Shown in pieces: positions 4,415 to 29,022 of a DNA stretch of 36,084 nt. This DNA is from a virus: the IMG/VR virus record IMGVR_UViG_3300032053_000248, positions 1 to 36,084 of that record; one strand, given 5' to 3'. Both the position numbers and the translations under genes were made by a program. The notes under the pieces were generated by a model. It did no database searches. It worked only from the letters and a program-made list of their open reading frames with translations, and was not told where the DNA came from. The number at the start of each line of letters is the position of its first letter. The first letter of the stretch is position 1.

Positions 4415-5422
4415 ATGGGAGTTAAAAAAGCACCCGAAGCTATAACTACAAAAACGGGTGAGACAGTAACGTTAAATTACTGTAGGAAGTGTATGCAGAA
4501 TCTTCCAGCGAAAGAGTTCTACGAATGTACGGATGCTGGCTTTGTAGATGCTAACGGTTTGCAAAGCGTATGCAAATCATGTGTTCAGGAAATTTATGAA
4601 TATTTCTATACAGAAACAAAAAGTATAGAAAAAGCGATACATAAAACATGTGTTAGTTTGAATATGAAATATTCGAATGAATGTGCTTCCGCTACCAAGT
4701 CCCACATTGAAACACTGTTAGAAGGAGGTAAGAAGGTAAACACGGTGATGGGCATTTTTAAATCAAAACTTATAGCCACTAACCCCTCAATGAATAAGAG
4801 TGCAATAATTGATTTGACTTATTCTGATATGGGGGCAATATACACATCCCAACCGCTTAATATAAAAGAAATTAAGATACCAGACGAAGTTATTGTTTTT
4901 TGGGGAGATGATTTGACTAGAGATGATATTCAATATTTGGAAATGGAATATACAAGCTTTAAAGGCACACATAAAGCAGACACTTATGCGGAAATAACTT
5001 TGTTTAAACGAGTTTGTTATACTCTACTAGACATTAAGCACGCAAGACTTGCTGGCGATGACACAAATAAACTTGTAAAAGAGCTGCAAGACTTGATGAA
5101 AAATTTGGCTATATCCCCAAATGCCATTAATGCGTCTGGAACAGATAAAGGATTAGATACTTTTGGACTTTGGATACAAGACATTGAGAAGCAAGAACCT
5201 GCTCAATGGCTGAAGACTGACCCACGAGGCGATATGTACAGAGACGCAGGAAACGTGGAAGAATATTTTCAAAAATATATTGTTAGACCTCTAAAGAATT
5301 TCATTACCGGAAGTAAAGATTTTAATATTGATGAATCTTCAGGAGACGATGATGACGATATGTTTCTAGACGATGTCGTTGATTATAAAAATATAGATGA
5401 TGGTGAAGTAGGAGAAGTATGA
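4415..5422 (+). CDS. Putative terminase small subunit with N-terminal zinc finger
   Basis: 335 residues, ATG 4415 with ATGGAGGAT upstream. The N-terminal domain has a four-cysteine zinc site, C23-x2-C26 and C53-x2-C56 (CRKC, CKSC), around FYE and DANGLQS. Such Cys4 modules occur in small phage DNA-binding proteins encoded just before large terminases. The middle is mainly helical. The C-terminus is very acidic (ESSGDDDDDMFLDDVVDY), which could contact the large subunit. The gene overlaps the large terminase by ATGA (5419-5422), showing translational coupling, and position is the main reason for the call. Small terminases bind packaging sites on phage DNA and load the large subunit. Sequence similarity alone would not settle it. 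Confidence 0.6.
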   Translation: MGVKKAPEAITTKTGETVTLNYCRKCMQNLPAKEFYECTDAGFVDANGLQSVCKSCVQEIYEYFYTETKSIEKAIHKTCVSLNMKYSNECASATKSHIETLLEGGKKVNTVMGIFKSKLIATNPSMNKSAIIDLTYSDMGAIYTSQPLNIKEIKIPDEVIVFWGDDLTRDDIQYLEMEYTSFKGTHKADTYAEITLFKRVCYTLLDIKHARLAGDDTNKLVKELQDLMKNLAISPNAINASGTDKGLDTFGLWIQDIEKQEPAQWLKTDPRGDMYRDAGNVEEYFQKYIVRPLKNFITGSKDFNIDESSGDDDDDMFLDDVVDYKNIDDGEVGEV

Positions 5423-5934
5423 ACAAAAAATCATTATCTCCCCCTCTTAGGAACATGAAATATTACACAAGGATGAATGACCCTGTTAAAATGCTTACAG
5501 ACAAAGAAATGACTGAGGCAAAGAAAAGTCGCATTAAGAGTTGGGTAACTTTTTATAGGTCTAACCCTTCTTTTTTTATAGAACACTATATGGGGGTAAA
5601 ACTTTATCCATATCAAAGATTTTGGGTAAACTTAATGTCTAGGTCTACAGAATTTGTGGGCATTGCTTCACGTGCTAGTGCGAAAAGTTGGATTGTAGGC
5701 GTATACACTATAGCAAGGTGTATATTATACCCCGGTACTATTGTTGCTTTAGCTTCTTCTACAAAAGCCCAAGCAGGATTAATCATTGCAGAAAAATGTG
5801 CTGCTCTTAGGGATGAACACCCAAACATAGCCAGAGAAACATTAAGTATAACAACCAATCAAAATAAATGGGAACATCTTTTTAAAAACGGCTCTAGAAT
5901 AAATGTGGTTGTATCTGGTGAAGGCGGTAGAGGT
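5419..5934 (+). CDS. terL: Terminase large subunit, exon 1 (ATPase N-terminal half)
   Basis: 172 codons from ATG 5419, which overlaps the previous stop as ATGA. The exon holds the Walker A-like motif SRASAKS (residues 84-90) after the adenine-binding region YPYQRFWVN, and runs to SGEGGRG. The frame meets TAA at 5935-5937, the first bases of the intron. Joining codon 172 (GGT, 5932-5934) to CAC at 7047 restores GGRG-HRSNITVLEE, the usual run into the Walker B motif. The spliced protein is 604 residues, normal for the family. Large terminase drives DNA into the prohead and cuts the concatemer. Without splicing, only an inactive ATPase fragment would be made. Confidence 0.9.
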
Positions 5935-7046
5935 TAAAATAATAAATATTTGTAGCAATAAAATTTTATATAAATAAATCCAAAAGGAGGAACATATAAA
6001 ATGTTTACAACAGGAAAAGAATGGACGGAAGAAGATATAAAGTTTCTAAAAGATAATTACACAACCATGACAACTCGTGAGTTAGCAAATTCTCTTGATA
6101 GAACTTATTCTTCTGTAGAAAATAAGAGAGGAAGATTGGGTTTAAAAGAGGAAAGAAAATATAATTTCAATTTTGATTTTTTCAAAAACCCTTTAAATGA
6201 GCATTCCGCATATTGGCTTGGCTTTATCGGCGCTGATGGTTATGTTTCAGATGATGGTAAAAGTCTGGGAATTACATTGAAAAGTGATGACTACGAACAC
6301 TTGAAAAAACTTAATAAAACATTAAAAGGAAACGTTCCGGTGGTTTTCAGAGAAAGAGCCCCAACCATTATATCAGGAAGAGAAACAGGGGTTAGAAAGC
6401 AATGCTCAATTCGATTTTATAGCAAAGAGATGGTGAGAGACCTGTCTTCTTACGGAATAGTTCCAAGAAAATCTTTAATCATTGAATTTCCGCCCATTGA
6501 AGACAATTATTTACTCTGGTGCTATATACGTGGATATTTTGATGGAGACGGTTCTTTACATTACGATAAGAGAAGTAACCAATTAAGGGCAAAAATAACA
6601 TCGGGCTCTTACTCCTTTATAAAATCTTTTTCCGAATATCTAAAAAATTTTGATATAAAAACATACATTACAACTAATAAAATGGATTGTGGAATAACAG
6701 GGAAAGAATGTACTAGATTGTTTTTATCAAAGATTTATGACAATGCCGGCGTTTATTTAAATAGAAAATTCAAGAAGTATAAAAAATACAAATATTTATT
6801 TGGCTTCAGCGAGTAGCAATGCTCGTTTAAAATGGCGCAAAAAACGGGAACGTTGAGACACAAACCCGAGTGGAAGGTTATAATTAAAAACATAACCACA
6901 CGCAACGCATAGAAAATGAACCCTTGAAAAAGGAATATAATTTTTCCAAGAGTGCGCCTACCCCAAGTGGGTAAAAAGATATGCTGAACTTAAGAGAAAA
7001 AAATCTTAAGAATGCGAGAATAAAAAGTCTTGCAGATAACATAATG
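5935..7046 (+). ncRNA. Group I intron interrupting terL
   Basis: 1112 bases. The core after the endonuclease gene folds in group I order. P1 is exon GAGGT (5930-5934) with guide GCTTC (6803-6807), closed by the expected U-G pair. P2 is CGAGTA-GCAA-TGCTCG (6810-6825), capped by a GNRA loop. P3 is near GTTTA (6825-6829) with TGAAC (6917-6921). A CGGG/CCCG helix (6845-6848, 6865-6868) lies in the P4-P5 region. A P6-region hairpin is GGTTAT/ATAACC (6876-6881, 6892-6897). P7 is GCATA (6907-6911) with TATGC (6980-6984). P8 is TACCC/GGGTA (6959-6973). P9 is CTTAAGA/TCTTAAG (6989-6995, 7004-7010). The AAAAGATATGC run matches the conserved S/P7 element AAGATATAGTC. Exon 1 ends in T and the intron ends in G (7046), as group I splicing needs. 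The boundary gives an uninterrupted TerL motif. Pairings are hand-made; P3 to P5 are the least certain. Confidence 0.88.
6001..6816 (+). CDS. LAGLIDADG homing endonuclease (intron-encoded)
   Basis: 271 residues, ATG 6001 with AAAAGGAGG ten bases upstream. Residues 7-50 resemble a Myb/SANT-like helix-turn-helix (EWTEEDIKFLKDNY ... SSVENKRGRLGL), a common extra DNA-binding unit on phage homing enzymes. Two LAGLIDADG motifs follow: YWLGFIGADG (71-80) and YIRGYFDGDG (175-184). Each keeps the acidic catalytic residue (Asp79; Asp181/Asp183), so a single chain can make both halves of the active site and cut an intronless terL allele. The stop codon TAG (6814-6816) and last codons overlap the intron guide sequence and P2 helix, so the coding end and ribozyme share bases. 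The gene is intact and looks functional. Confidence 0.92.
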   Translation: MFTTGKEWTEEDIKFLKDNYTTMTTRELANSLDRTYSSVENKRGRLGLKEERKYNFNFDFFKNPLNEHSAYWLGFIGADGYVSDDGKSLGITLKSDDYEHLKKLNKTLKGNVPVVFRERAPTIISGRETGVRKQCSIRFYSKEMVRDLSSYGIVPRKSLIIEFPPIEDNYLLWCYIRGYFDGDGSLHYDKRSNQLRAKITSGSYSFIKSFSEYLKNFDIKTYITTNKMDCGITGKECTRLFLSKIYDNAGVYLNRKFKKYKKYKYLFGFSE

Positions 7047-8345
7047 CACCGCAGTAATATAACTGTACTAGAAGAAAGGCGCTTAATTCCTACTGTCATT
7101 ATTGATTCAATCATTAGACCCTTTCTAGTTAGCCGCCAACCCCCTTACATGATGAAGCCAGAATATTCGGCTATTGAAGAATTAAGGGAAGAACCAATAG
7201 AAATAATTATTACCAGTGCCCATTACAAAACATATGAGTGGTATCCTGAAATTAAAAAATTTATCAAGAAGATGGCAGAAGGTGACCCTGATATAAAAGC
7301 CATATTCTTTGATTACTTAATTTCTTTGCATCACGGCATTAAGACCAAGAAGCAAATGAAAAAGGAAAATGAAACCCTTGACCCGATTACTTTCTTGATG
7401 GAATATGGAAATATACCATACGGGTCATCCAGTCTATCTTTCTATAAACTTGGTTTGTTTAACAGGGATGTTAAAAAGAGTTGGAGACCAATAACTGATG
7501 AAGAGTACATAACCACAAGGAAAAACCCTTATGATATAATCAAAAGGGCTGACGAAATGCGAATTGTTTCAGTCGATGTGGCTATGAGAGCGGGGTCTAC
7601 CAACGATAATACAATTATAAGTTGCGGTAGGTTAACCCCTAGCCGAAAAGGATGGATAACAGAAATATGTTACATGGAATCTCATAACGGAAAGAACACA
7701 GCTTTACAGGCACTGCGTATAAAGCAGATATATAAAGAGTTCCAAGCCGATGTACTTGTACTCGACTTAGCAAACGCTGGAATATCCGTGTTCGATGCCC
7801 TTTCATCTGTTACTAAAGATGAAGTTAGAGGATTAGAGTATGAAGCATATACGGTTATGAATTCAGATGATGTTGACGATAAAGTTTATGAAGAGTTAAT
7901 CAACAGGACACTTGGGCAAGATGCTGTTGGATGTATTTTTCCAATCTCAGCCACCTCCCAACTAAACTCCTTGATAGCAGTTAAATTCAGAGAGAGATTA
8001 AAAAAGAAACTTGTTTTATTCTTAGTTGACGATAACACGGAGGAAGAGTTCTTGATTAAATCAGGAAACAAAGATATATTAGACCAAGAAGATACAGGCA
8101 TAAGAGCCCACCTATTACAAGCTCATTTGCAGACAAGTTTATTTATAAATGAGTCAATTGCACTAGAGATGATGCTCCAGAACGGTTTAATTAAATTGAT
8201 AGAACCACCGGGAGCTAGGAAAGATAGATATACATCTGTTAGTTATCTCAATTATTATGTATCTTTAATGGATACACAATTATTGAAAGAAAAATACTCC
8301 GGTAACGATGAGCTTGAATTCTTAAGTTTATCTCGGGTGTATTGA
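7047..8345 (+). CDS. terL: Terminase large subunit, exon 2 (Walker B and nuclease domain)
   Basis: 432 codons after splicing. The open frame extends upstream to ATG 6981, but those 22 codons lie in P7-P9 of the intron, lack a ribosome binding site, and do not fit TerL. Exon 2 begins HRSNITVLEERRLIP: ITVLEE is Walker B plus the catalytic Glu (residues 177-182 of the spliced protein). The RNase H-like nuclease half shows an acidic Asp in IVSVDVAMRAG (spliced residue 349) and another in VLVLDLANAGISVFD (412). In this family such acidic residues bind the metal ions that cut DNA during packaging. The downstream portal starts 12 bases after the stop. Confidence 0.9.
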   Translation, partial: HRSNITVLEERRLIPTVIIDSIIRPFLVSRQPPYMMKPEYSAIEELREEPIEIIITSAHYKTYEWYPEIKKFIKKMAEGDPDIKAIFFDYLISLHHGIKTKKQMKKENETLDPITFLMEYGNIPYGSSSLSFYKLGLFNRDVKKSWRPITDEEYITTRKNPYDIIKRADEMRIVSVDVAMRAGSTNDNTIISCGRLTPSRKGWITEICYMESHNGKNTALQALRIKQIYKEFQADVLVLDLANAGISVFDALSSVTKDEVRGLEYEAYTVMNSDDVDDKVYEELINRTLGQDAVGCIFPISATSQLNSLIAVKFRERLKKKLVLFLVDDNTEEEFLIKSGNKDILDQEDTGIRAHLLQAHLQTSLFINESIALEMMLQNGLIKLIEPPGARKDRYTSVSYLNYYVSLMDTQLLKEKYSGNDELEFLSLSRVY

Positions 8346-8357
8346 AAGGAGGAATAA

Positions 8358-10127
8358 TTGGAAGAAAATGACAACGAAAAAGACGAAATTCTTATAACCG
8401 AAGAAAACGTGTGGTCGGTTATTGAATATGCTAGGGCACTGTCTATGGGAATGTATGGGCAAACCTATTTGAATCCAGAATTAATTTCTGGAAGAATGAA
8501 AGATATTACTCTTAACCCATTACAGGCAACTCAGGATATGCTTGATAAGGCAATGAAAGAACCTAAGTCAAATGAGACACAACTTCAGCAGTTCTCCCAA
8601 AGTTTTGAACTTACTTCTATGGTATACAAAAGGCTTATTTCTTACTTGGGAAATATGCTTTCATTCGATATTACTTATACAGCGAATACTAAAAACAAAG
8701 AAGACTACACAACCCCTAAGTATAAGAAAGACCTTCAGGCAGTAGAAACCTTTTTGGATAAATTCGACTATAAGAAAGAACTGCGGGTTGTTGTAAGAGA
8801 AATGTTAAGGAACGATGCCTACTTTGGCTGCTTTGTGGATACAGGAAACGGTTATGTTCTACAAGAATTACCTGCCGAATTTTGCAAAATAACAGGCAGG
8901 TGGGAAGGCGGTTTTCTATTCAGCTTTAATACCTACTGGTTCTTGCAGCCCGGAGTTGATATTAACATGTATCCTCCTTTCTTTAAAAAGAAATATAAGG
9001 AAATATGGGAAAACTCAAACGCACTCAAGAGTTATAATCCATCTTTACCAGTTGAGCTAAGAGATAGGTCATCTTGGATTTATTGGGTTGATATTCCAAC
9101 AACGTTTGGTGTTTGTTTTAAATTGTCACCCGAGCTGGCAACAAGGTTACCTTATTTCAGTCCTATTTTTAATGACTTGATTTTACAACCCTTGATGCGC
9201 AACTTGCAAAAGAGTATCAGCATGGCAGCGGCTACCAAGATAATTATGGGTGAAGTTCCCTTGCTTAACAGGGACGCCAAAGCCAGTGTAAAAGATATGT
9301 TCTCCATCAGTCCTGATTTGCTAGGCAAATTCATGGCGTTGGTGAAAAGCGCTATCACAGAAGCAGTTAAAGTCGCATCTGCACCTTTGACAAATATAAA
9401 AGGTATTGATTTTAAAGGCGACAATGAAATGTATGATAGCTACTTGAGAACAGCTCTGGCTTCCAGCGGTATTAATACAAATCTTATTTTCAGTAGCAGT
9501 GTAAAGCCAAACGCAGTAGAAACTCAATTAAGTTTAAATGTTGATGAACAAATGATGACTGCTCTTTATGAGCAGTTCAATGAGTTTATGAATTATTTCA
9601 TAAACAAGCGCACCAACACTTATAAATTTAAACTTGTTTTTGAAGGAACTGATTTCTTCTTAAACAGGGCAGAAAGATTAGAAACAGCGATTAAACTGTT
9701 TGATAAGGGTATCATATTGCCCCAAAAGATTGCGGCTGCAATAGGTATGAAACCCGCTCAAATGAGAAGGCAGATGGAAGAGTCTGGCGCTATGGACTTT
9801 ATGGCATTGGTGAAAGCACCTGCTTACGAACAGCAAACCAAGATAGCCCAAATGACGATAGATGCTCAACAGGACTTGACTGAGTTAAGTCAACAAGGGC
9901 AGGTTGAAATAACCGAGTTAAATCAGGAGGGTCAAAAAGAACTCGCAGATTCTAATCAGCAAGCAACTTTAGAGACCGCAAAAATAACTAAAGCAAACAC
10001 ACCTAAAGTTCCAGCCACAAGTAAAGCCGACAAAGGCAGACCACAAAAAAAGACTTCTAGATTGGGGGAAGAGGGGCTTAAAACTCGTGAGACGGGTGGA
10101 AATCTTGGGAGAGGAGGAAAAATTTGA
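8358..10127 (+). CDS. Portal protein
   Basis: 589 residues from TTG 8358. The start is supported by AAAGGAGG five bases upstream and by the lack of a better ATG. The position right after the large terminase, the length, and an alternating helix/strand pattern fit siphovirus portals. The segment from about residue 355 (GDNEMYDSYLRTALASSGI) through SVKPNAVETQLSLNVDEQMMTALYEQF, followed by TYKFKLVFEGTDFFLNRAERLETAIKLFDKGIILPQKIAAAIG, resembles the crown/stem end of many portals. The last 90 residues are a Gln/Glu-rich helix and a basic, low-complexity tail. Portal forms the dodecameric gate through which DNA enters the prohead. The stop TGA overlaps the next ATG (TGATG), indicating coupled translation. 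Confidence 0.82.
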   Translation: MEENDNEKDEILITEENVWSVIEYARALSMGMYGQTYLNPELISGRMKDITLNPLQATQDMLDKAMKEPKSNETQLQQFSQSFELTSMVYKRLISYLGNMLSFDITYTANTKNKEDYTTPKYKKDLQAVETFLDKFDYKKELRVVVREMLRNDAYFGCFVDTGNGYVLQELPAEFCKITGRWEGGFLFSFNTYWFLQPGVDINMYPPFFKKKYKEIWENSNALKSYNPSLPVELRDRSSWIYWVDIPTTFGVCFKLSPELATRLPYFSPIFNDLILQPLMRNLQKSISMAAATKIIMGEVPLLNRDAKASVKDMFSISPDLLGKFMALVKSAITEAVKVASAPLTNIKGIDFKGDNEMYDSYLRTALASSGINTNLIFSSSVKPNAVETQLSLNVDEQMMTALYEQFNEFMNYFINKRTNTYKFKLVFEGTDFFLNRAERLETAIKLFDKGIILPQKIAAAIGMKPAQMRRQMEESGAMDFMALVKAPAYEQQTKIAQMTIDAQQDLTELSQQGQVEITELNQEGQKELADSNQQATLETAKITKANTPKVPATSKADKGRPQKKTSRLGEEGLKTRETGGNLGRGGKI

Positions 10128-10606
10128 TGCTAATATCAGATAACTTAAGAAAATCAATATGTGAGCAGATTTCGCATGAGAAATATAACTCTCACCTTTA
10201 TTTATATATCTGCGGATACTTAAGGAATAAAGGCTTGGAAAATTTAGCAAAGCATTTTGAAGAACAGCACAAAGAAGAATTCGAACATTCACTTGAATTT
10301 TTTAACTTGCTCACCGATATGAATGCAGATGTAGTGATTCCAGAAGTGCCTGAAATTTCAATGCCTTTCCCAACAATCATTGATGTTGCAAAGTTCTATT
10401 TGGCTAGGGAGATTCTTACCACGACAGCCATTAACGCTATTAAGAAAATGGCTATGGAAGAAGATAACCCTATAGTCGAAGAGAAAATGCGTGAGATGAT
10501 TACCAAACAACAGAATGAATATGGAGAAGCTACTACATTCTTAGACAGGGCTATACTTATGTCAGAGTGGTGGCAGGTGGCCTTGTGGGATGCGTCTATA
10601 GGGTGA
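10127..10606 (+). CDS. Ferritin (phage-encoded, diiron site intact)
   Basis: 159 residues from ATG 10127, which overlaps the portal stop as TGATG and has GAGGAGG nine bases upstream. It reads as a bacterial-type ferritin along its whole length, with four long helices. Compared with E. coli FtnA, the ferroxidase ligands are all in place: Glu18 and Tyr25 (SHEKYNSHLY), Glu51 and His54 (EEFEH), Glu95 (AREILTT), Gln128 and Glu131. The FtnA third-iron (C-site) ligands Glu126 and Glu129 are replaced by Lys127 and Asn130. Ferritins oxidise Fe(II) and store iron in a 24-subunit shell. The gene is locked between portal and protease genes in the late operon, so the protein is made during virion assembly. 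Whether it stores iron, protects from oxidative damage or is packaged is unknown. The family call is strong. Confidence 0.88.
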   Translation: MLISDNLRKSICEQISHEKYNSHLYLYICGYLRNKGLENLAKHFEEQHKEEFEHSLEFFNLLTDMNADVVIPEVPEISMPFPTIIDVAKFYLAREILTTTAINAIKKMAMEEDNPIVEEKMREMITKQQNEYGEATTFLDRAILMSEWWQVALWDASIG

Positions 10607-10610
10607 TATA

Positions 10611-10808
10611 ATGATAGTAAATCCAGACAGTATTAAAGACTTGTATAAATGCAAAGAACAGGTCATGAGGTACTTAGCATACAAATGCCACATTCCTGTT
10701 CTTTCTTATGACAAAGATTATTATTATTTTGTTTATAATAATCATTTAAAAGATGCTTTAAAGAAGATGCCTTTGGGAATAAAGTTACATTCTTATTTTA
10801 AAACATGA
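10611..10808 (+). CDS. Small protein of unknown function
   Basis: 65 residues, ATG 10611, starting 4 bases after the ferritin stop with only a weak site (AGGGTGATAT) upstream, so translation probably depends on coupling. The sequence is rich in Lys and Tyr (SYDKDYYYFVYNNHLKDALKKMPLGIKLHSYFK) with no membrane helix. I do not recognise it. It is followed by a degraded stretch of 129 bases, so this pocket between ferritin and protease may be an insertion-prone site. Confidence 0.45.
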   Translation: MIVNPDSIKDLYKCKEQVMRYLAYKCHIPVLSYDKDYYYFVYNNHLKDALKKMPLGIKLHSYFKT

Positions 10809-10937: not shown

Positions 10938-12500
10938 TTGAAACAAAAATTAAGTTTTTCAGTCGAAGATGCTAAGATGATAAACGAGAATCCAGATTCC
11001 AACTTTGCGGTTTTAGCATTAGACTTTTTTGCTTCCGGGGAGAACCTACACGACATGTATGTTTCGGAAGAAACTCTCATGAGGACTGCCGATACAATAA
11101 AGAACTGCCCTCTCGTGTGGTTGTATGACGAGACCTTAGATGATATTTATACTCACGACAAAAATGAAGTCCCCTGCGGGTTTGTTCCAGAAAGTTCCAA
11201 TCTATCCAGCAAAAAGACGGAAGACGGGAGGACGATGCTTTCTGTAATTGCCTATGTATGGAAAAGATATACGGGAGAATTATTAAACTTTTTTAAGAGG
11301 GATGGTGGTAAAAAACCAATAAGTGTGGAAATGACTGTTTATAAAATGCAAACTCTTCCAAACGGATACCAAGAGTTACTTGACTTCAAGTATGAAGGTA
11401 TAACCGTTTTAGGAAGTTTTGTTACTCCAGCTATCCCTATGGCTGAGGCGACTGTTTTATCTTTTGCTGAGCTTACAAATGAGTATAATGATGATTTAAG
11501 AAATGAGTTTGATTCTGATAATATCAGAACTTCACTCCCTCATACTGACAAAAGCGCCGAAAAATGGGCAGAATTAATTGTTGAGAAAATGGACAGTAAA
11601 AGAGAAATCCTTACTTTTCCATATAAATCTATGAAAGACGCAAACCCCGCTTTGAGGGGTATAAGTCCGCCTATCACGGTTGAGCAAGCCAATGAAATAG
11701 CTAAGCAAGCTGATGCGATTGGAAGTGATGACAAAAAGAACGGTTGGGCTATTGCAATCAGTTCGTTTAAAAAAACTCACACCGTTAAAGACGGAAAATG
11801 GGTAAAAAAGGAGATAACTAATATGACCGAACAAGAAAAATTAGAACAAATGGCTGCGGAGGCTAAAGCTGCTGAAGAAGCTAAATTTGCCGAAGATGCA
11901 AAAACTGCCGAGGAAGCAAAGTTCGCAGAAGATGCGAAAGCTGCCGAGGAAGCTAAGGCTGCTGAGGAAGCTAAAGCCAAAGACGAAAAGAAATTCGAAT
12001 TTCCTAAAAACATGAGCCTTGAGAAAATGGCGGCACTCTTCTCAGATGATGCTGATGAAGACGATGTGAAGATGGCAAAAGAAGAGTGGGCTAAAGGTGC
12101 TGAGTTCGCCAATCCTGCTGTTGTTATGGGCGGCATGTTTGCCAAGATGTGCAAGATGGCTGAAGTTATGGAAAAGATGACAGCCGACAGTAAAGCATAC
12201 ATGGCTGAGAACGAAGAATTAAAGAAATTTAAAGCTGAGTTTGAAGGTCAACAGAAACAGTTTGCCATTGATAAGACATTCAAAGCACTCGAAGAGAAGG
12301 TTATTATTCCGGATGACGCAAGGAAAGAAATGATTGCAGAAGCTGATAAATATTCTTTCGCTCAAATCGAAGAGTGGGAAACATATTGCAAGGCAAAATC
12401 ATTTGACTTCGCTGTAAAAGGTGACAGCAAATCAGATGTTGTACGAATTGGTATCTGGTCTACCGGAACAACCAAAAAGCCAGATGAACTCTGGTCTTAA
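10938..12500 (+). CDS. Capsid maturation protease fused to scaffold domain
   Basis: 520 residues from TTG 10938, with AAGGAGG eight bases upstream. Residues 1-180 look like a phage prohead protease: His73 (YTHDKNEVPCGFV), Ser129 (KPISVEM) and a closing block YEGITVLGSFVTPAIPMAEA, which is characteristic of this fold. Residues about 225-290 match a ChaB-like segment often joined to such proteases (KSMKDANPALRGISPP ... GWAIAISSFKKTHTV..GKWVK). From residue 296 on it is an acidic, Ala/Glu-rich helical region with EEAK repeats, as in scaffolding proteins. The protease would trim scaffold and capsid proteins before DNA filling. A strong internal start at residue 296 suggests a second, shorter product. 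The gene sits between portal and capsid, the usual place. Confidence 0.75.
   Translation: MKQKLSFSVEDAKMINENPDSNFAVLALDFFASGENLHDMYVSEETLMRTADTIKNCPLVWLYDETLDDIYTHDKNEVPCGFVPESSNLSSKKTEDGRTMLSVIAYVWKRYTGELLNFFKRDGGKKPISVEMTVYKMQTLPNGYQELLDFKYEGITVLGSFVTPAIPMAEATVLSFAELTNEYNDDLRNEFDSDNIRTSLPHTDKSAEKWAELIVEKMDSKREILTFPYKSMKDANPALRGISPPITVEQANEIAKQADAIGSDDKKNGWAIAISSFKKTHTVKDGKWVKKEITNMTEQEKLEQMAAEAKAAEEAKFAEDAKTAEEAKFAEDAKAAEEAKAAEEAKAKDEKKFEFPKNMSLEKMAALFSDDADEDDVKMAKEEWAKGAEFANPAVVMGGMFAKMCKMAEVMEKMTADSKAYMAENEELKKFKAEFEGQQKQFAIDKTFKALEEKVIIPDDARKEMIAEADKYSFAQIEEWETYCKAKSFDFAVKGDSKSDVVRIGIWSTGTTKKPDELWS
11823..12500 (+). CDS. Nested in-frame scaffolding protein
   Basis: 225 residues from ATG 11823, in frame inside the protease gene (its residue 296). 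AAAAAAGGAG ends at 11813, nine bases before the ATG, a better ribosome binding site than many in this window. The product starts MTEQEKLEQMAAEAKAAEEAK. It consists of an acidic helical coiled-coil region, a middle segment with ANPAVVMGGMFAKMCKMAEVMEKM, and a C-terminal basic/hydrophobic end. This is the arrangement of lambda C and Nu3, where the scaffold is made from an internal start of the protease gene. The internal site is seen; its use is inferred. Confidence 0.6.
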   Translation: MTEQEKLEQMAAEAKAAEEAKFAEDAKTAEEAKFAEDAKAAEEAKAAEEAKAKDEKKFEFPKNMSLEKMAALFSDDADEDDVKMAKEEWAKGAEFANPAVVMGGMFAKMCKMAEVMEKMTADSKAYMAENEELKKFKAEFEGQQKQFAIDKTFKALEEKVIIPDDARKEMIAEADKYSFAQIEEWETYCKAKSFDFAVKGDSKSDVVRIGIWSTGTTKKPDELWS

Positions 12501-12531: not shown

Positions 12532-13089
12532 ATGGCTTATCATGGTGTTTTAATACCGGAAGCAATCGCAGCCAGCACTATCGACTCTTTAGTTAGAAGT
12601 GTCGTAGATGCAGCCGATGTTGATAACGGCAATGTTTTTGTAATGGGTGCACGTTCAACTACCGCAGGACTGCCCGAGGTTTTTGAAATTTCTGTTCCTT
12701 TAACTGGTGCGACAACTCTAGGTAATCTTTGGATGGCATATTCTGGTGACGAAATTGTTGTTACTGATAGCAAGTACAAAGGTTTAGACCCCGATGTTCG
12801 CAATTTCTATAATGCTGCTGGCAAGGTATTTTCTGCATACAAACCCCAAGTTGGTGACATTATTATGTTAACCGCAGATGCAATTTTAGACGCTTATGAT
12901 GCGGGTAATGACCTTTTCATAGTTGCAGCAAATAGTTCTTGGGAACTACAGTGGAGTACTACCAATCCCGGCACAGGTTTAACTTACGCCCTTCTAGGAG
13001 TTAAGTATATTTCTCTTGCTACGGGTGGGATTGATAGCCAACGTGTGGCTGCTTATGAATTTGAATGTATTGCAACTTACGCAGTGTAA
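12532..13089 (+). CDS. Small virion protein, paralogue A (decoration-like)
   Basis: 185 residues, ATG 12532 with TAGGAGG upstream. It begins MAYHGVLIPEAI and contains YSGDEIVVTDSKYKGLDPD, FSAYKPQVGDIIML and KYISLATGGID. All four blocks recur in the next gene, so the pair arose by tandem duplication. The predicted fold is mostly beta, with no membrane or signal segment. Position directly upstream of the major capsid gene, and codon choice resembling it, suggest an abundant capsid-associated protein such as a decoration or cementing subunit. I do not recognise a named family, so the role is inferred. Confidence 0.6.
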   Translation: MAYHGVLIPEAIAASTIDSLVRSVVDAADVDNGNVFVMGARSTTAGLPEVFEISVPLTGATTLGNLWMAYSGDEIVVTDSKYKGLDPDVRNFYNAAGKVFSAYKPQVGDIIMLTADAILDAYDAGNDLFIVAANSSWELQWSTTNPGTGLTYALLGVKYISLATGGIDSQRVAAYEFECIATYAV

Positions 13090-13111
13090 TTTTTGAAAAA
13101 GGAGATATAAT

Positions 13112-13681
13112 ATGGCATATCATGGAGTTTTAATTCCCGAGGCAATTTACGCTAAAGATGTAGATGCCTATATTAGAAGTGCAGTTTCTACTACTACAGC
13201 GGTTGACAACGGGAACATTGTTAAACTTACAACCCGCTCTGCTGTTGCGGGGGAAGGTGAAGTATTTCTTGCGATAGCACCTTCAACCGGAAACGGTCTT
13301 ACTGGCTTGTGGATGGTATATTCTGGTGACGAAATTGTTGTTACAGATGCAAGATACAAAGGCTTAGACCCTGACCCTCGTAATTTTTTTGTTCCAATCA
13401 GCACAAGCACAGAAAGGCATGTCTTTTCTGTGTATAAACCAGCTTTAGGCGACATTATTCTGTTAAGTGCAGATGCCCTTGCTGGTTCATATGTTGCTCT
13501 TTCAACAACCCATATCAGCGCAACTGATACTACTGGTGGCATTCACTTGTTATGGGACACTCAACTTCGCACCGCAGTTCTATGCTACAAGTTATTGGCA
13601 GTGAAATATATTTCTCTTGCCACAGGTGCTATTGATGACCAACGTGAAGTTGCTTACGAATTCGAATGCGTAAGTCTTTAA
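13112..13681 (+). CDS. Small virion protein, paralogue B (decoration-like)
   Basis: 189 residues, ATG 13112 with AAAAAGGAGAT upstream, 22 bases after paralogue A. It keeps the same start (MAYHGVLIPEAI) and the same core blocks (YSGDEIVVTDARYKGLDPDPRNFF, KYISLATGAIDDQREVAYEFEC), while the loops between them differ and are a few residues longer (for example around ISTSTERHVF and THISATDTTGG). Strongly conserved cores with diverged loops suggest two related subunits at different positions on the capsid, or a diversifying surface. The gene lies 24 bases before the major capsid gene. The function is inferred from context. Confidence 0.6.
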   Translation: MAYHGVLIPEAIYAKDVDAYIRSAVSTTTAVDNGNIVKLTTRSAVAGEGEVFLAIAPSTGNGLTGLWMVYSGDEIVVTDARYKGLDPDPRNFFVPISTSTERHVFSVYKPALGDIILLSADALAGSYVALSTTHISATDTTGGIHLLWDTQLRTAVLCYKLLAVKYISLATGAIDDQREVAYEFECVSL

Positions 13682-13705: not shown

Positions 13706-14830
13706 ATGAAAATAGCTAATCAAATTGTCGCTTTCGCAGGGGAGGCTAACTTAGCTCCTTATAAAATGTTTGCCGACTACTACAACCACTTCCTTTCACT
13801 GAACGGTGCAAAGAACGTTGATTTCCAGACTACAGCAACAACCCCCGAAGGTATTGTTGTGCCTGTTTCCTTCTCCGAAAAAGAAGAGAAAATGAACGCG
13901 GCTCTTAAACGTGAAATTATGCGTGTTGCTGGCGTAACCAATATCGGGGATTTCCCGATTGAAAGTTGGGCAAATCATCCTACTTTAAAGTGGGCTACAT
14001 TCGCAGTTATTTCTGCCATGATTGATATGGTTCTTCCTGATGCAATCATCGGAGATGTAGGTATTTATTCAGATGTTCGTACCATCGGTTGGGGCGATAG
14101 CGCCGCATTTGACGTTAAACCCCGTGACCTTTTTGTTGTGTCTAAAGGTGGTAAGTCAAAGAGAACCACCGAACTCCACAAACAATTCGTGGGTCAGATT
14201 ACCGTTATGCCAGAACCTCGTCAGATGACCGTGTTCGTGTCTTTGATGAAAGTTTTAGCAGGTAAGGAATCCCTTGCTGATATGGTTATCAAGATGGTTC
14301 GCTCATTTGAGACTCAATTGAGCTATGATATTTACGATGCATTTGCTACTGCTATGGGCGCTGTTACCAACACTGCTTCTACCGGACTTCGTGTTGCGGG
14401 TTACACACAGGCTGAATTTGTACGCTTGTCACAAACCGTTGCCGCATGGAATGGTGGTGCTAAACCTGTTGCTATCGGAACTCAACGTGCTTTGGCAAAA
14501 ATCCTACCTTTGGACGCAAACTATCGTTACGAGATTGACAGCGATTTCGTAAAAGTCGGTTACCTACGTAACTTCCAAGGAACTGATATTATGGTTCTAC
14601 CTCAAATCGCTGACTGGACAACTCCGTTTGCTTTGAAATTGTCTGATTCTAAGATTTGGATTGTTTCACCTTCTGCACAGAAAATCGTTAAGCTTGTTCT
14701 GGAAGGTTCTGCCCTATCTTATACTTCTGACGTTTACGCAAACGCAAATCTTGTTCAAACTTCTACCCTTATTAAGAGTTGGGGTACTGCTATCGCAACA
14801 AACGCTGTTGCCGCAGAAATCACTCTTTAA
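13706..14830 (+). CDS. Major capsid protein (HK97 fold)
   Basis: 374 residues, ATG 13706 with AAAAAAGGAG upstream. Length, position after protease/scaffold, and a pattern of long N-terminal helix, mixed central domain (IQxGRDIL-type region: GWGDSAAFDVKPRDLFVVSKGGKSKRTTELHKQ) and C-terminal domain (PVAIGTQRALAKILP ... LRNFQGTDIMVLPQIADW ... IWIVSPSAQKIVKLV) fit HK97-like capsid proteins of siphoviruses. Codons are strongly biased to CGT for Arg and to TTC/AAC/GGT, unlike the AGA-rich neighbours, as expected for the most abundant virion protein. A 9-bp hairpin follows. No maturation-cleavage site is obvious; the protease upstream may remove the first residues or only the scaffold. Confidence 0.85.
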   Translation: MKIANQIVAFAGEANLAPYKMFADYYNHFLSLNGAKNVDFQTTATTPEGIVVPVSFSEKEEKMNAALKREIMRVAGVTNIGDFPIESWANHPTLKWATFAVISAMIDMVLPDAIIGDVGIYSDVRTIGWGDSAAFDVKPRDLFVVSKGGKSKRTTELHKQFVGQITVMPEPRQMTVFVSLMKVLAGKESLADMVIKMVRSFETQLSYDIYDAFATAMGAVTNTASTGLRVAGYTQAEFVRLSQTVAAWNGGAKPVAIGTQRALAKILPLDANYRYEIDSDFVKVGYLRNFQGTDIMVLPQIADWTTPFALKLSDSKIWIVSPSAQKIVKLVLEGSALSYTSDVYANANLVQTSTLIKSWGTAIATNAVAAEITL

Positions 14831-24159: not shown

Positions 24160-27100
24160 ATGCCAAGTATTACCATTGATATTTTAGCTAATACGAAAAA
24201 ATTTGTAGACTCATTTAGCCAGATTAACTCTATGATGAAGTCAAAGCCATTAATCATTCCCACAGCACAAACAAGCGCCACGTCGGGAAATATTACAGAA
24301 GCTAACGCGATTAATACATCAATAAAAGAAAGAGCCGTTGGAATTTCTGAAGTCATTACAAAGACAAAAGAATATACTGATGCCTTGGGGCAAAACAAGG
24401 TAATTACAACAGAGTTAGAAAAAACATGGATTGGCACTAACGGGGAAATATATAAAACAACAGAAAAAGTAGGAACTGGTTGGGATAACTTAACAAAAAA
24501 GCATAAATTATTAAAAGAGACAATGGCTACTCAAGATTTTAAAGTATTTGCAGAAAATCTTGAAAGAGCAAAATTAGATGTTGATAAAATGGCTAAAAGT
24601 GCCGAAGACTTTAAAGCTAAAGCAACAAATATGGCAGGAAAACCCGCAGAAGAAGTAAAAAAACTTACAACTCAAGTTATTGAAGCTGCCGCCGCTTTTG
24701 GTAAAATGGGGGCAGACGACAAAGGCTTAACTGACGCATACAACAAGGTTGTAAACTTGAGCAGGGCGCTTCAATTAGCACAGGAAAAAACAACACAAGC
24801 AGCTAACGCAAACAAGAGTTGGGGAGCAAGTTTAGCTGGTGCAATGAAACAAACCATTGCGTATGCCGCATCCCTTGGATTGATAAGAATGGCACAGCAG
24901 CAACTAAGGGAAGGTTTGCAGTATATCATTGAATTAAATAAAGAAATGGTTAGCATTCAAGTTCTTCAAGCAGAAGGTGCTCAAACCCCGGAAGAAATTA
25001 ATTCTTTGGCCTCAGCATATAATGATTTGGCAAAAGCAATGGGTGTAAGTACCCTTGAAATAGCTAAAGGAAGCCTTGAATGGCTACGTCAGGGTAAATC
25101 AATTGCAGAAACAACCGAATTACTTAAAGCTTCAACCGCTCTTTCTAAACTGGGTAACATGAGTGCGGCAGAAGCTACAGAGTATCTAACTTCAACCGTA
25201 AACTCTTACAAATTATCAACTGAAGATGCTATTAAAGTTGTAGATAAATTAATTGCAGTAGATAACAAAAGTGCTACTAGCGCAATGGAACTTGCAACTG
25301 CATTAAGATATTCAGCAGCAACAGCGGCTGAAGCTGGCGTTTCTCTTGAGCAATTAATTTCGTATATTGGTGTTGTATCATCTGTTACCAGAATGAATGC
25401 TGAATCTATAGGTCAAGCTTTCAAGACAATGCTGACCCGTATGCAAGATATTAAGGCTGGAAAGATTGATGAGGACGGTTTAGGAATTAACAACGTAGAA
25501 AGTGCTTTAGCCAGAGTTGATATAAAGCTCAGGGATAGCGCCACAAGTTTTAGAGATTTAGGCGGGGTTCTTGAAGAGCTTGCTACAAAATGGGATACTT
25601 TAAACGAAATTGAACAAGCAAACATCAGTAAAGCTATAGCCGGTATTCGTCAAGCAAACATGTTCCAAGTATTAATGCAGAACATGAATATTGCCTTAGG
25701 ATACCAAAAGGAACAATTTAACTCTGCTGGTTTGGCTATGGATAGGTATCAAATCTATCTTGAAGGAGTTGAAGCTGCTCAAAATAAACTTAAAACATCT
25801 GTGGAAGGTTTATGGCAAGACGCTATAGCCAGCGGAGCTATAAAAAGTGTATTAGATTTTGGTACTAGCCTTGCTGGATTAGTTGAAGCATTAGGTGGGT
25901 TGCAAGTAGTTTTAGGAATTACAATAATAGCGCTTGCCGCTTACAAAATAGCAGTATTAGCAGCGGCGGGTGCAGAAGCTCTTTGGTTAGCGCTTAGCCC
26001 TATTGGATGGGTAGTGGCAGTAGTTGCAGCGCTTGCTGTATTGGCTGCTGGATTTAATCATCTTACCGGAGGTGTCAAGAGAAACACAGACGCATTTCGA
26101 GAATCCAGCAAAGCATTACAAGATACATCTGATGCTACGAGAAGTTTAAAACATTCTCAAATCGAAACCGAAACTCTTTCTGCCAGATATGCAAAATTAG
26201 CTGGAACTATTAGAAGAACAGCAGATGAAGCTAAAGAGTTTACAGATATACAAAATAAATTGCATGACTTATTTCCAGAACTAAGTGGTACATATGATGA
26301 TAACCTTAATTTTCTAATATCATCTAGAGATGTATCTCAACAAATATTAGACATAGAAAGAGAAAAATATAAAGTTCTTTTGGCTGAGGGGCAAGAAAAA
26401 GGCAAGCAAGCTGCTATTGACGCCTTTAAAGTAATGGAAGATGATAAAAACAGATTGGCTGATGCCCAATATAAGCGTGACTTGGCGGCATATAATTATA
26501 ACCAAAATTTTATCAATGCTATTCATAGTCAAAAGTATAAAAACGCTAAAGAAATAGAAAATCTTCCTTATATGATAACTTTAAAAAGTCAGTTAGATGC
26601 AGCAGAAATTATTTTGAATGAAGCTAAAAAATCAACAAAATCTTTTGAGTTGACACTCAAAGATATATATATGAGATTAGGCGTTGAAGCTAGAAAAGCA
26701 CTGATAGAAGGGCTAGACCCAAACGGAACTAATTCTCTAATTCAAGGATTTATAAAAAAGGTAAATGACACAGAAGCTCTTCAGGCAGAAGTAAATATGG
26801 CTAAGATGCGAAGAGATGCCGGTATGTCACTTCGCCCTGAAGATATTTTTGGCAAAGCCACAGATGCCTTAACCTATGCTTCGGCTTTAAGTGAAATAAC
26901 GGATGGTTTAGAGGGAGTAAATGCTATTAAGAAAGCAATAGCTGAGAACGGGGGTATACTTCCAATAGATAAAATTAAAGACGCAGAAAAATTAGGTTTA
27001 GTGATAGAAAAAGACCTTAACGGGAATTTAATTATCACCGAGAAATCTTTAAATAGAGTAACAGAGAACGCATACTATGCCAGTGATGCATTTATAAATT

Positions 27101-29022
27101 TGACACCAGAACTGCAAAATGCAGCAAGAGCGGCGATTGATTTGGCCAATGCAGAAGAAGCAACAACAGATGCATTTTTCAGCAATCAACAAATGCTTGA
27201 AAGCGTTATGGAGTCTTATCGCCAAACGGGGGAATTAACTTATCAACAAATGATACAGATGATGAAAGCCGGATATGCAGAAGCTATAATGATTGACGTA
27301 AAAACCGGAAAAATAACATTAGATACGATAGCTCTCCATTATCTTGTTGTAGCAGAAGCCGAAGTCATTGCTACGGAAGCGTGGCATGCTTACCAACTTG
27401 CTCTAACGGGAAACGCTCTAGATACAGAAACAAGAAAACTATGGCTAAACTGGCAAGCCCTTGATGCTCTAGCTAAAAAATTAAAAGAAATGCCAGATGC
27501 AATAACAATCCCAACATATGACGGCGGAGGTGGTGGAGGTGGTGGAGGAAAATCAGAAGAAGAGATAAGGTTGGAAGGAGAAATTAAACTTCTTGAAAAG
27601 AAAAAGAAAGCTCTCCAAGACCAACTCGAAGAATATAAAAAATACATCGCCGCACAAAAAGAATCTCTAAAGCGCATGAAAGAAGAGAAAGACTTCACTG
27701 ATGAATTGATGAAGAAGAACTTGGATTTGGCTAAATTAAAAGCCAGAATCACCATCCTTTCTTTAGATGATAGCGAAGAAGCTACCGCAGAGAGACTAAA
27801 GCTCGAAGAGGAAGCCGGTCAACTTGAAACTGAAATTACCAAAGATAAGGAAGACAGAAAGTACGAACTCCAAATACAGGCATTAGATGACTTAGAAAAA
27901 GCATTTGAAGAAATGATTAACAAACAAATTGAAGCAATTGACACCATGATAGACAAGCTTCGAGAACAAATAAGCGCCTTGCAAAAGGGGTCTTCATCTG
28001 GTGCTAATACTATTGTAAAGAATAATGACAAGATAAAAATGTCATATGCCGAGATGATGGCAACAATTACCCAAATGATGAAAGATACATTCGGAGAAAT
28101 AGATGTTGCGCATCAGGCGTGGGTTGATGAAACAGTAGAGGGTATGCTCAGACAAGGAAAGTCTTATGATGAGATATTAGAAAAACTAAGAGAGATGCTT
28201 CGCTTGCAGGATGAGTTATCCAAAAAAGAGGGTACTACTCCGCCTCCGGTTATCCCCCCTCCCACTGGCAAAGGTTGTTTTATAGCAGGAACAATGGTTT
28301 CTATGGCAGACGGGACAATTACACCAATAGAAAAAATCAATGTTGGAGATTTAATAAAATCATATGATTTTGAACAAGATAAATTAATTGACACAACAAT
28401 AACTGAAACACTACATCATAAAAAAGAAGAAGTTGAAGAATATATTGTACTAAATGATTTCCTTAGCGTAACTCCCAATCACGCAATGTATGTGGAAGGT
28501 TGGTGGAAGCCTGTTAAAGATTTGACAATTGGCGAATACTTAACAGATATTCATGGAGTAAAAATAGAGGTTGCATCGTTGGAATGGGTTAAAGCAAGTG
28601 TTCCAGTATATAACCTTCATACAAACCATGAATCCCACAACTATTTTGCCAACGGGATTCTTGTTCATAACATCTATAAAAAGCATGAGGGTGGAATTGT
28701 TGAACAGCATCATGGAGGAGAGTTCGCCGGAAAACTAAAAAGCAATGAAGTATTTTCCAAGTTATTAAAAGGCGAATATGTTGCTACAGAAGGACAAATG
28801 AGTAACTTTATGGGTAACATACTTCCTAGAATTGCAAATCAACCAACAGGAACTTCTATTAAAAACGGGGAAACAAATATTTCCATGCCAATTCACGTTG
28901 AAGGCAATCTTGATAAATCTGTTCTACCCGACTTGGAAAAGATGATGAACAAAACATTTGAAAAAATGAATGCGGCATTAATGAGCAGAGGATATAAACG
29001 GTCAACTGACCAAGTTCTATAA
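24160..29022 (+). CDS. Tape measure protein with embedded Hint domain
   Basis: 1620 residues, ATG 24160 with GAAGGAGG upstream. The longest gene in the tail block, before Dit, is the tape measure protein that sets tail length. Residues about 255-430 match the phage-tail minor protein core (ELNKEMVSIQVLQAEGAQTP ... AMELATALRYSAATAAEAGVSLEQLISYIGVV). Hydrophobic helices occupy 583-632. A Gly run (about 1122-1130) and long coiled coils (about 1135-1290) follow, then a Pro-rich linker (TPPPVIPPPTGKG). Residues 1373-1504 are a Hint domain. The C-terminal 116 residues start IYKKHEGGIV, with NEVFSKLLKGEYVATEGQM, the normal end of such proteins. The chain may be cut at the Hint domain. A serine or cysteine needed for splicing is missing after its final Asn. 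Confidence 0.9.
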   Translation: MPSITIDILANTKKFVDSFSQINSMMKSKPLIIPTAQTSATSGNITEANAINTSIKERAVGISEVITKTKEYTDALGQNKVITTELEKTWIGTNGEIYKTTEKVGTGWDNLTKKHKLLKETMATQDFKVFAENLERAKLDVDKMAKSAEDFKAKATNMAGKPAEEVKKLTTQVIEAAAAFGKMGADDKGLTDAYNKVVNLSRALQLAQEKTTQAANANKSWGASLAGAMKQTIAYAASLGLIRMAQQQLREGLQYIIELNKEMVSIQVLQAEGAQTPEEINSLASAYNDLAKAMGVSTLEIAKGSLEWLRQGKSIAETTELLKASTALSKLGNMSAAEATEYLTSTVNSYKLSTEDAIKVVDKLIAVDNKSATSAMELATALRYSAATAAEAGVSLEQLISYIGVVSSVTRMNAESIGQAFKTMLTRMQDIKAGKIDEDGLGINNVESALARVDIKLRDSATSFRDLGGVLEELATKWDTLNEIEQANISKAIAGIRQANMFQVLMQNMNIALGYQKEQFNSAGLAMDRYQIYLEGVEAAQNKLKTSVEGLWQDAIASGAIKSVLDFGTSLAGLVEALGGLQVVLGITIIALAAYKIAVLAAAGAEALWLALSPIGWVVAVVAALAVLAAGFNHLTGGVKRNTDAFRESSKALQDTSDATRSLKHSQIETETLSARYAKLAGTIRRTADEAKEFTDIQNKLHDLFPELSGTYDDNLNFLISSRDVSQQILDIEREKYKVLLAEGQEKGKQAAIDAFKVMEDDKNRLADAQYKRDLAAYNYNQNFINAIHSQKYKNAKEIENLPYMITLKSQLDAAEIILNEAKKSTKSFELTLKDIYMRLGVEARKALIEGLDPNGTNSLIQGFIKKVNDTEALQAEVNMAKMRRDAGMSLRPEDIFGKATDALTYASALSEITDGLEGVNAIKKAIAENGGILPIDKIKDAEKLGLVIEKDLNGNLIITEKSLNRVTENAYYASDAFINLTPELQNAARAAIDLANAEEATTDAFFSNQQMLESVMESYRQTGELTYQQMIQMMKAGYAEAIMIDVKTGKITLDTIALHYLVVAEAEVIATEAWHAYQLALTGNALDTETRKLWLNWQALDALAKKLKEMPDAITIPTYDGGGGGGGGGKSEEEIRLEGEIKLLEKKKKALQDQLEEYKKYIAAQKESLKRMKEEKDFTDELMKKNLDLAKLKARITILSLDDSEEATAERLKLEEEAGQLETEITKDKEDRKYELQIQALDDLEKAFEEMINKQIEAIDTMIDKLREQISALQKGSSSGANTIVKNNDKIKMSYAEMMATITQMMKDTFGEIDVAHQAWVDETVEGMLRQGKSYDEILEKLREMLRLQDELSKKEGTTPPPVIPPPTGKGCFIAGTMVSMADGTITPIEKINVGDLIKSYDFEQDKLIDTTITETLHHKKEEVEEYIVLNDFLSVTPNHAMYVEGWWKPVKDLTIGEYLTDIHGVKIEVASLEWVKASVPVYNLHTNHESHNYFANGILVHNIYKKHEGGIVEQHHGGEFAGKLKSNEVFSKLLKGEYVATEGQMSNFMGNILPRIANQPTGTSIKNGETNISMPIHVEGNLDKSVLPDLEKMMNKTFEKMNAALMSRGYKRSTDQVL
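28276..28671 (+). other. Hint domain (bacterial-intein-like) inside the tape measure gene
   Basis: Residues 1373-1504, 132 long, the size of a mini-intein without endonuclease. Block A begins with Cys1373 (CFIAGTMVSMADGTITPIEK, then VGDLIKSYD). Block B is VTPNHAMYV with the conserved T-x-N-H. Blocks F and G are VYNLHTNHESHNYFANGILVHN. It ends His1503-Asn1504 and is followed by Ile1505, not Cys, Ser or Thr, as in type B bacterial-intein-like domains. The expected chemistry is N-terminal acyl shift at Cys1373 and Asn1504 cyclisation, giving cleavage rather than protein splicing. The domain is flanked by a Pro-rich linker on the left and the usual tape-measure C-terminus on the right. Confidence 0.85.

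Follow-up and report, generated by a model that had tools for sequence, protein, structure and literature searches.

The window analyzed here, an IMG/VR virus record, spans 36,084 bases and is probably a fragment of a larger phage genome, given that related records reach 75–123 kb. Its head genes and the signals between them are arranged as follows:

8358..10127, + strand: portal protein, SPbeta/YonE-like (PHROG 2739 portal, E 2.9e-57; tblastn to annotated phage portals)
10109..10117, + strand: ribosome-binding site of the ferritin gene, approximate, AGAGGAGGA, within the 3' end of the portal gene (from the sequence)
10127..10606, + strand: non-haem ferritin, 159 aa (Pfam PF00210; AF2 model; match to 1s3q; invariant ligands)
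10611..10808, + strand: 65-aa ORF with no assigned function, also retained between the slot and the protease when ferritin is missing
10938..12500, + strand: putative prohead protease/scaffold fusion, 520 aa (PHROG 3313, unknown function, E 8.8e-19)
12532..13681, + strand: two tandem paralogous head proteins, presumably decoration-like
13706..14830, + strand: major capsid protein (PHROG 4088, unknown function, E 2.1e-40; PMBT24 homolog annotated as major capsid protein)

The ferritin ORF opens with an ATG whose A is shared with the TGA stop of the portal gene (TGATG), and a strong AGGAGG lies upstream of this start, inside the portal gene; translational coupling of ferritin to portal is thus plausible from the sequence. 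Neither a promoter excess nor an Rfam element was found in the window. The original prediction had placed the ferritin inside the head operon, and recurrent synteny in related phages bears out its membership of the head gene cluster. It had also described the gene as preceding the capsid protease, which is right as to order, although the 65-aa ORF (10611–10808) intervenes and the protease starts only at 10938. This small ORF had no matches in Pfam or PHROG, and the putative protease role of the 10938–12500 product draws on its THD and SVEM motifs and on its position.

Several other features of the window deserve mention. The tandem decoration-like genes (12532–13089 and 13112–13681) are represented by a single gene at loci L004 and L019 and by two at L020 and L021. 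The terminase large subunit is encoded in two parts (5419–5937 and 6981–8345), divided by a segment that carries a LAGLIDADG endonuclease ORF (6001–6816) and is intron-like, yet has no Rfam match (within 5419–8345); the same gene is intact in L004 and L019 and divided in L006, L007, L009, and L032. An ORF at 76–1746 contains collagen-like repeats (PF01391), and a tape-measure-like protein (24160–29022; PhageMin_Tail) includes a Hint/PT-HINT domain at approximately residues 1371–1504.

Family, fold, and ferroxidase center of the window ferritin

Assignment of the gene product to ferritin is near certain. The original prediction had proposed a PF00210 search and a structure prediction with comparison to Dps as checks, and both came out in its favor: the protein scored 60.9 bits against PF00210, well over the cut-off of 24.5, and an AF2 model that drew on 19 phage sequences (pLDDT 95.9) displayed the ferritin four-helix bundle, with helices at residues 5–34, 38–64, 84–111, 115–144, and 148–158. 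Both the BC crossover and helix E are present in this confident model, which aligned with A. fulgidus ferritin (1s3q) over all 159 residues (Z 23.3, rmsd 1.6) and with E. coli FtnA (1eum) over 157 residues (Z 22.4, rmsd 1.5). The closest solved structures by sequence are likewise archaeal and bacterial ferritins. Against the NCBIfam non-heme ferritin PRK10304, the protein scored 26.9 bits, far under the cut-off of 178. We also considered a phage-specific C-terminal tail and rejected it, as the tail aligns as an ordinary helix E. Separately, three BFVD entries labeled ‘prohead protease’ (A0A6J7WIS1, A0A6J7WPK9, and A0A6J7XDU5) gave partial Foldseek matches to the ferritin model, a hint, at the level of models, that Dps/ferritin–protease fusions may exist in other phages.

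Other branches of the superfamily do not fit. Bacterioferritins have Glu and His as helix D ligands (E127, H130), where the window protein instead carries Q128 and E131, and so the bacterioferritin ligand pattern is absent. Dps proteins are without the C-terminal helix E and form their ferroxidase site between subunits; in the window ferritin, the 148–158 helix is present and the intrasubunit ligands are intact, which sets it apart from Dps. Encapsulated ferritins (EncFtn) are short, two-helix proteins that assemble as decamers inside encapsulin, whereas the window protein is full-length and four-helix.

Residue numbers in FtnA are one lower than those in the window ferritin (phmmer aligned residues 9–131 with 8–130 of PDB 9bye), such that FtnA E17, Y24, E50, H53, E94, Q127, and E130 correspond to window E18, Y25, E51, H54, E95, Q128, and E131. 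The ligands named in the original prediction each sit where it had put them and match FtnA at this offset, and its statement that two C-site ligands are changed also held, with FtnA E126 and E129 replaced by Lys127 and Asn130. All seven residues were invariant in a first alignment (20 of 20 rows) and again in a wider one of phage ferritins (30 of 30) spanning two diverged subfamilies. The window's own subfamily has Glu at position 50 and, throughout its 20 rows, no acidic residue at 127 or 130, and the window ferritin itself lacks the acidic C-site residues that mark FtnA-type three-site ferritins. In the second subfamily (L111, L121, L125, L143, L152, L170, L171, L173, and L176), Glu is usually missing from position 50 and mostly present at 127 and 130; one further member by tree, L131, nonetheless has K127 and G130. 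Ligand invariance combined with variation at 50, 127, and 130 across the subfamilies indicates a fixed diiron site and a variable third site.

The portal–protease slot among related phages

The order portal, ferritin, small ORF, protease/scaffold, and major capsid protein recurs in dozens of IMG/VR contigs; in the uncultured lineage to which the window belongs, the module runs through portal, ferritin, 65-aa ORF, protease, one or more decoration-like proteins, and major capsid protein. We retrieved 80 loci by portal similarity, and the complete portal–protease interval was visible in 56, of which 38 held a ferritin, two a ferritin fold without ligands, and 16 neither (as some of these are identical or near-identical phages, the numbers count loci rather than independent events). 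Together with locus L037, described below, these 38 answer the proposed survey for ferritin beside portal in the affirmative. In most loci, the start codon of the ferritin gene falls at the portal stop or close to it. Where ferritin is missing the 65-aa ORF is usually retained, marking ferritin as an optional element, and the existence of near relatives without the gene indicates that it is dispensable for head assembly. Other inserts in the interval comprise endonuclease-like ORFs and small Ser/Thr-rich beta-type proteins; at L144, L147, L154, L158, and L035, the latter bear repeats, start like ‘NKMNRASQ’, and are possibly head fibers or decorations.

Homologs of the terminase, portal, protease/scaffold, decoration-like, and major capsid proteins are collinear in PMBT24 (an Enterocloster phage), Sundance (Brevibacillus), vB_BcoS-136 (Bacillus), and SPbeta-like phages. 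In Sundance, vB_BcoS-136, SPbeta-like phages, Mammaliicoccus phi36, and KKP_3916, ferritin is absent and the protease gene directly follows the portal, and a tblastn search of the INPHARED phages with the window ferritin returned no matches. In the window's lineage, which is uncultivated and consists of large siphophages whose heads are SPbeta-like, ferritin is thus accessory and its slot a recombining one. A similar position was found in a second head module, L037, whose portal (PHROG 12), terminase (PHROG 5902), and capsid protein are all unlike those of the window. Here, a ferritin about 40% identical to that of the window sits after the portal and before a protease-like protein that precedes a putative capsid protein (the last two functions assigned from sequence and gene order), and the association thus extends beyond one head type.

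In some phages, the slot is instead occupied by a protein of 165–171 aa that keeps none of the ligands. Carriers include PMBT24, CB473P1, CB457P1, TR-TP1, a fecal phage contig, and several IMG/VR contigs, among them cultured phages of Enterocloster (E. bolteae) and Thomasclavelia (T. ramosa). Pfam recognition of these proteins is marginal or nil—L161, for example, reached only E 1.6e-4 against PF00210, under the cut-off. The AF2 model of one member (L039, 8001–8507; pLDDT 92.0) has helix boundaries nearly matching those of the window ferritin, and its top structural match was E. coli FtnA (Z 21.2, rmsd 1.6, 160 residues). By helix register, the ligand positions are filled mainly by hydrophobic residues, and no one-residue shift recovered the ferroxidase set. 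Profile comparison linked the catalytic and ligand-less families at E 4.8e-5 (68% probability); homology is likely, mainly on the grounds of modeled fold and place. Four residues, D26, H46, H51, and D58, are invariant in the ligand-less family and are candidates, from the alignment, for another metal site or possibly a contact site. At L124 and L161, the ligand-less version adjoins a 65-aa ORF of the window type, suggesting that the two versions swap by recombination at one locus. The presence of ligand-less ferritin folds at the same place implies that iron oxidation is not the sole use of the slot.

Codon comparisons indicate purifying selection on the ferritin gene across many phages: dN/dS between close relatives was mostly 0.06–0.13, rising to about 0.3 in two pairs, L115/L117, with a recombinant-looking C-terminus, and L170/L171, which are little diverged. 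The L115 (6776–7258) and L117 (3897–4373) ferritins are near-identical except for their last ~25 residues, and the two differing ends are types found throughout the family, consistent with recombination within the helix E region. A quick tree placed the 30 phage ferritins together and apart from the cellular ferritins fetched, with the exception of two long-branched Clostridium sequences of unsure placement. Cellular ferritins from a scan of genome contigs, a motif-based rather than exhaustive sample, were at most 35% identical to the phage ferritin. This separation makes recent capture from a host unlikely, and we rejected that origin; recurrent gene order, low dN/dS, and the L037 locus likewise argue against a stray capture. 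A portal-based prophage search of 398 genomes of one phylum, run with no positive control, gave no match. ‘Bacteriophage sp.’ fecal contigs that matched the phage ferritins were left unused, as the three inspected looked bacterial, with histidine kinase, glycoside hydrolase 92, thioredoxin reductase, and BlaR1-type genes.

Possible roles of the ferritin fold

Given the family assignment, the modeled fold, the conserved ligands and gene order, the purifying selection, and the dispensability observed here, we consider it on balance probable that the window encodes a late-made ferroxidase and iron-storage ferritin of the phage. For cage assembly, iron oxidation, timing, and benefit, all included in that estimate, we infer the following chain. 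Fe(II) would be oxidized at the intact intrasubunit ferroxidase center, and the iron probably mineralized in a ferritin-type cage. Being read with the head genes, the ferritin would be produced in bulk late in infection, a timing proposed from operon position only. Its most likely benefit would be to buffer iron and peroxide, either inside a host that is dying or close to heads under assembly. Of the uses that the original prediction raised, protection of lysing cells would be hypothetical, and packaging and iron delivery by the window ferritin are speculative.

A fixed place between portal and protease is unexpected for a purely metabolic gene, and the ligand-less proteins could not oxidize iron by this center; both points favor a further or another role for the fold, which may be related to the head. 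The main rival explanation takes this further, holding that the fold is a component of the head or procapsid (cargo, portal-associated, or decoration) that exists as catalytic and ligand-less alleles, with iron chemistry added in some lineages. We regard this as possible, though rather unlikely. It draws on conservation of the portal–protease place in two different head modules, on the occurrence in this slot, also in cultured phages of E. bolteae and T. ramosa, of a ligand-less protein whose fold and helix boundaries match those of the ferritin, on the ability of encapsulins, which are HK97-fold shells, to package ferritin-like cargo (PMC8346489 and PMC8791618), and, as a lead only, on the BFVD ‘Prohead protease’ matches (Foldseek E about 0.015). 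Against it, heads evidently form without the protein in the 16 of 56 full-interval relatives that have none, and no targeting signal was identified. Similarly tentative is the fuller version of this idea, in which the fold is a built-in yet optional part of head assembly, catalytic and pseudo-ferritin alleles interchange at one locus, and the protein is either a counterpart of encapsulin cargo or a recruited head protein.

The remaining explanations are much less likely. Ferritin-bound iron on the virion might engage host iron uptake or deliver iron at entry, a ferrojan-type mechanism proposed for Vi01-like phages and their gp217 (PMC10892097); however, the window gene lies in the head cluster rather than the tail, and in the Vi01-like case, dependence on the pathway was not found in the host tested (PMC10892097), leaving this very unlikely here. 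Alternatively, the portal–protease interval might be a recombination hot spot with changing cargo, in which ferritin is a neutral passenger without function for the phage. The other inserts that use the interval and the absence of the gene from many relatives are what such a process would leave, but dN/dS values mostly about 0.1 or less, invariant ligands, and a start codon that most loci keep at the portal stop or close by make it extremely unlikely. Finally, what was read as ferritin could have been a common head protein from some other helical family, or the contig could have been a chimera. Both are refuted, the former by the PF00210 match, phmmer, the AF2 model, and structure alignment, and the latter by repetition of the arrangement across many independent contigs. 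We thus return to a late-made ferroxidase ferritin as the preferred reading, with a fold that may additionally serve the head.

Comparison with known systems

Ferritins in phages have so far been single notices without a role. ORF39 of PMBT24, adjoining the portal, is annotated as ferritin and listed under ‘other functions’, with no role proposed in the available part of that report (PMC11035940), and the record for TR-TP1 gp13, also adjoining the portal, carries a ferritin-domain annotation and gives no role. The original prediction that ferritin has no established role in a phage head module therefore stands as regards role, but portal-adjacent ferritins had already been annotated. We found no description of a conserved head-operon ferritin slot in the literature covered, which mostly leaves out subscription papers; one lead on Dps and prohead protease was irrelevant, as DP there denotes decoration protein. 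In the phages compared here, an intact ferroxidase center is kept at one head-operon place across many members, and a ligand-less fold occupies this place in cultured relatives, a sharing which suggests that the fold itself matters to the virus. A vague annotation thereby becomes a direct question for cultivable systems—namely, whether the ferritin fold is in the particle, and what iron oxidation contributes. The answer has implications for phage management of iron and oxygen damage inside host cells, and for how ferritin cargo relates to HK97-type shells.

The closest parallels by position, PMBT24 ORF39 and TR-TP1 gp13, resemble the window ferritin in portal–protease slot, length, and predicted family fold, but keep none of its diiron ligands. 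Vi01-like gp217, modeled as a ferritin and detected by mass spectrometry of phage preparations, has a tail completion gene as a neighbor in its putative operon (PMC10892097); it shares a structural-gene neighborhood and a ferritin-type model with the window, and differs in its tail operon, in being a Phyre2 model only, and in belonging to different phages. Dps and Mn-catalase have been described in gut phages and phages of anaerobes, with protection from oxygen and iron proposed (PMC8008677), and Dps lies near DNA metabolism genes in Lactobacillus phages (PMC6669764). These Dps-like proteins and Mn-catalases (Gratiaviridae, Lactobacillus phages) are also phage-borne iron/peroxide enzymes of the ferritin superfamily, though of different families. 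Encapsulins and their ferritin-like cargo, like the window, pair an HK97-type shell with a ferritin-superfamily protein, whereas the window belongs to a tailed phage and encodes a classical ferritin of full length, with no cargo peptide known and any packaging hypothetical. Finally, the cellular ferritins FtnA and those of A. fulgidus and P. furiosus share with the window protein the whole-chain fold (Z 22.4–23.3), intrasubunit ligands, Tyr25, and helix E; they are only 19–24% identical to it, FtnA has Glu at the C-site positions (E126, E129) where the window has Lys and Asn, and the window gene, unlike theirs, stands in a phage operon.
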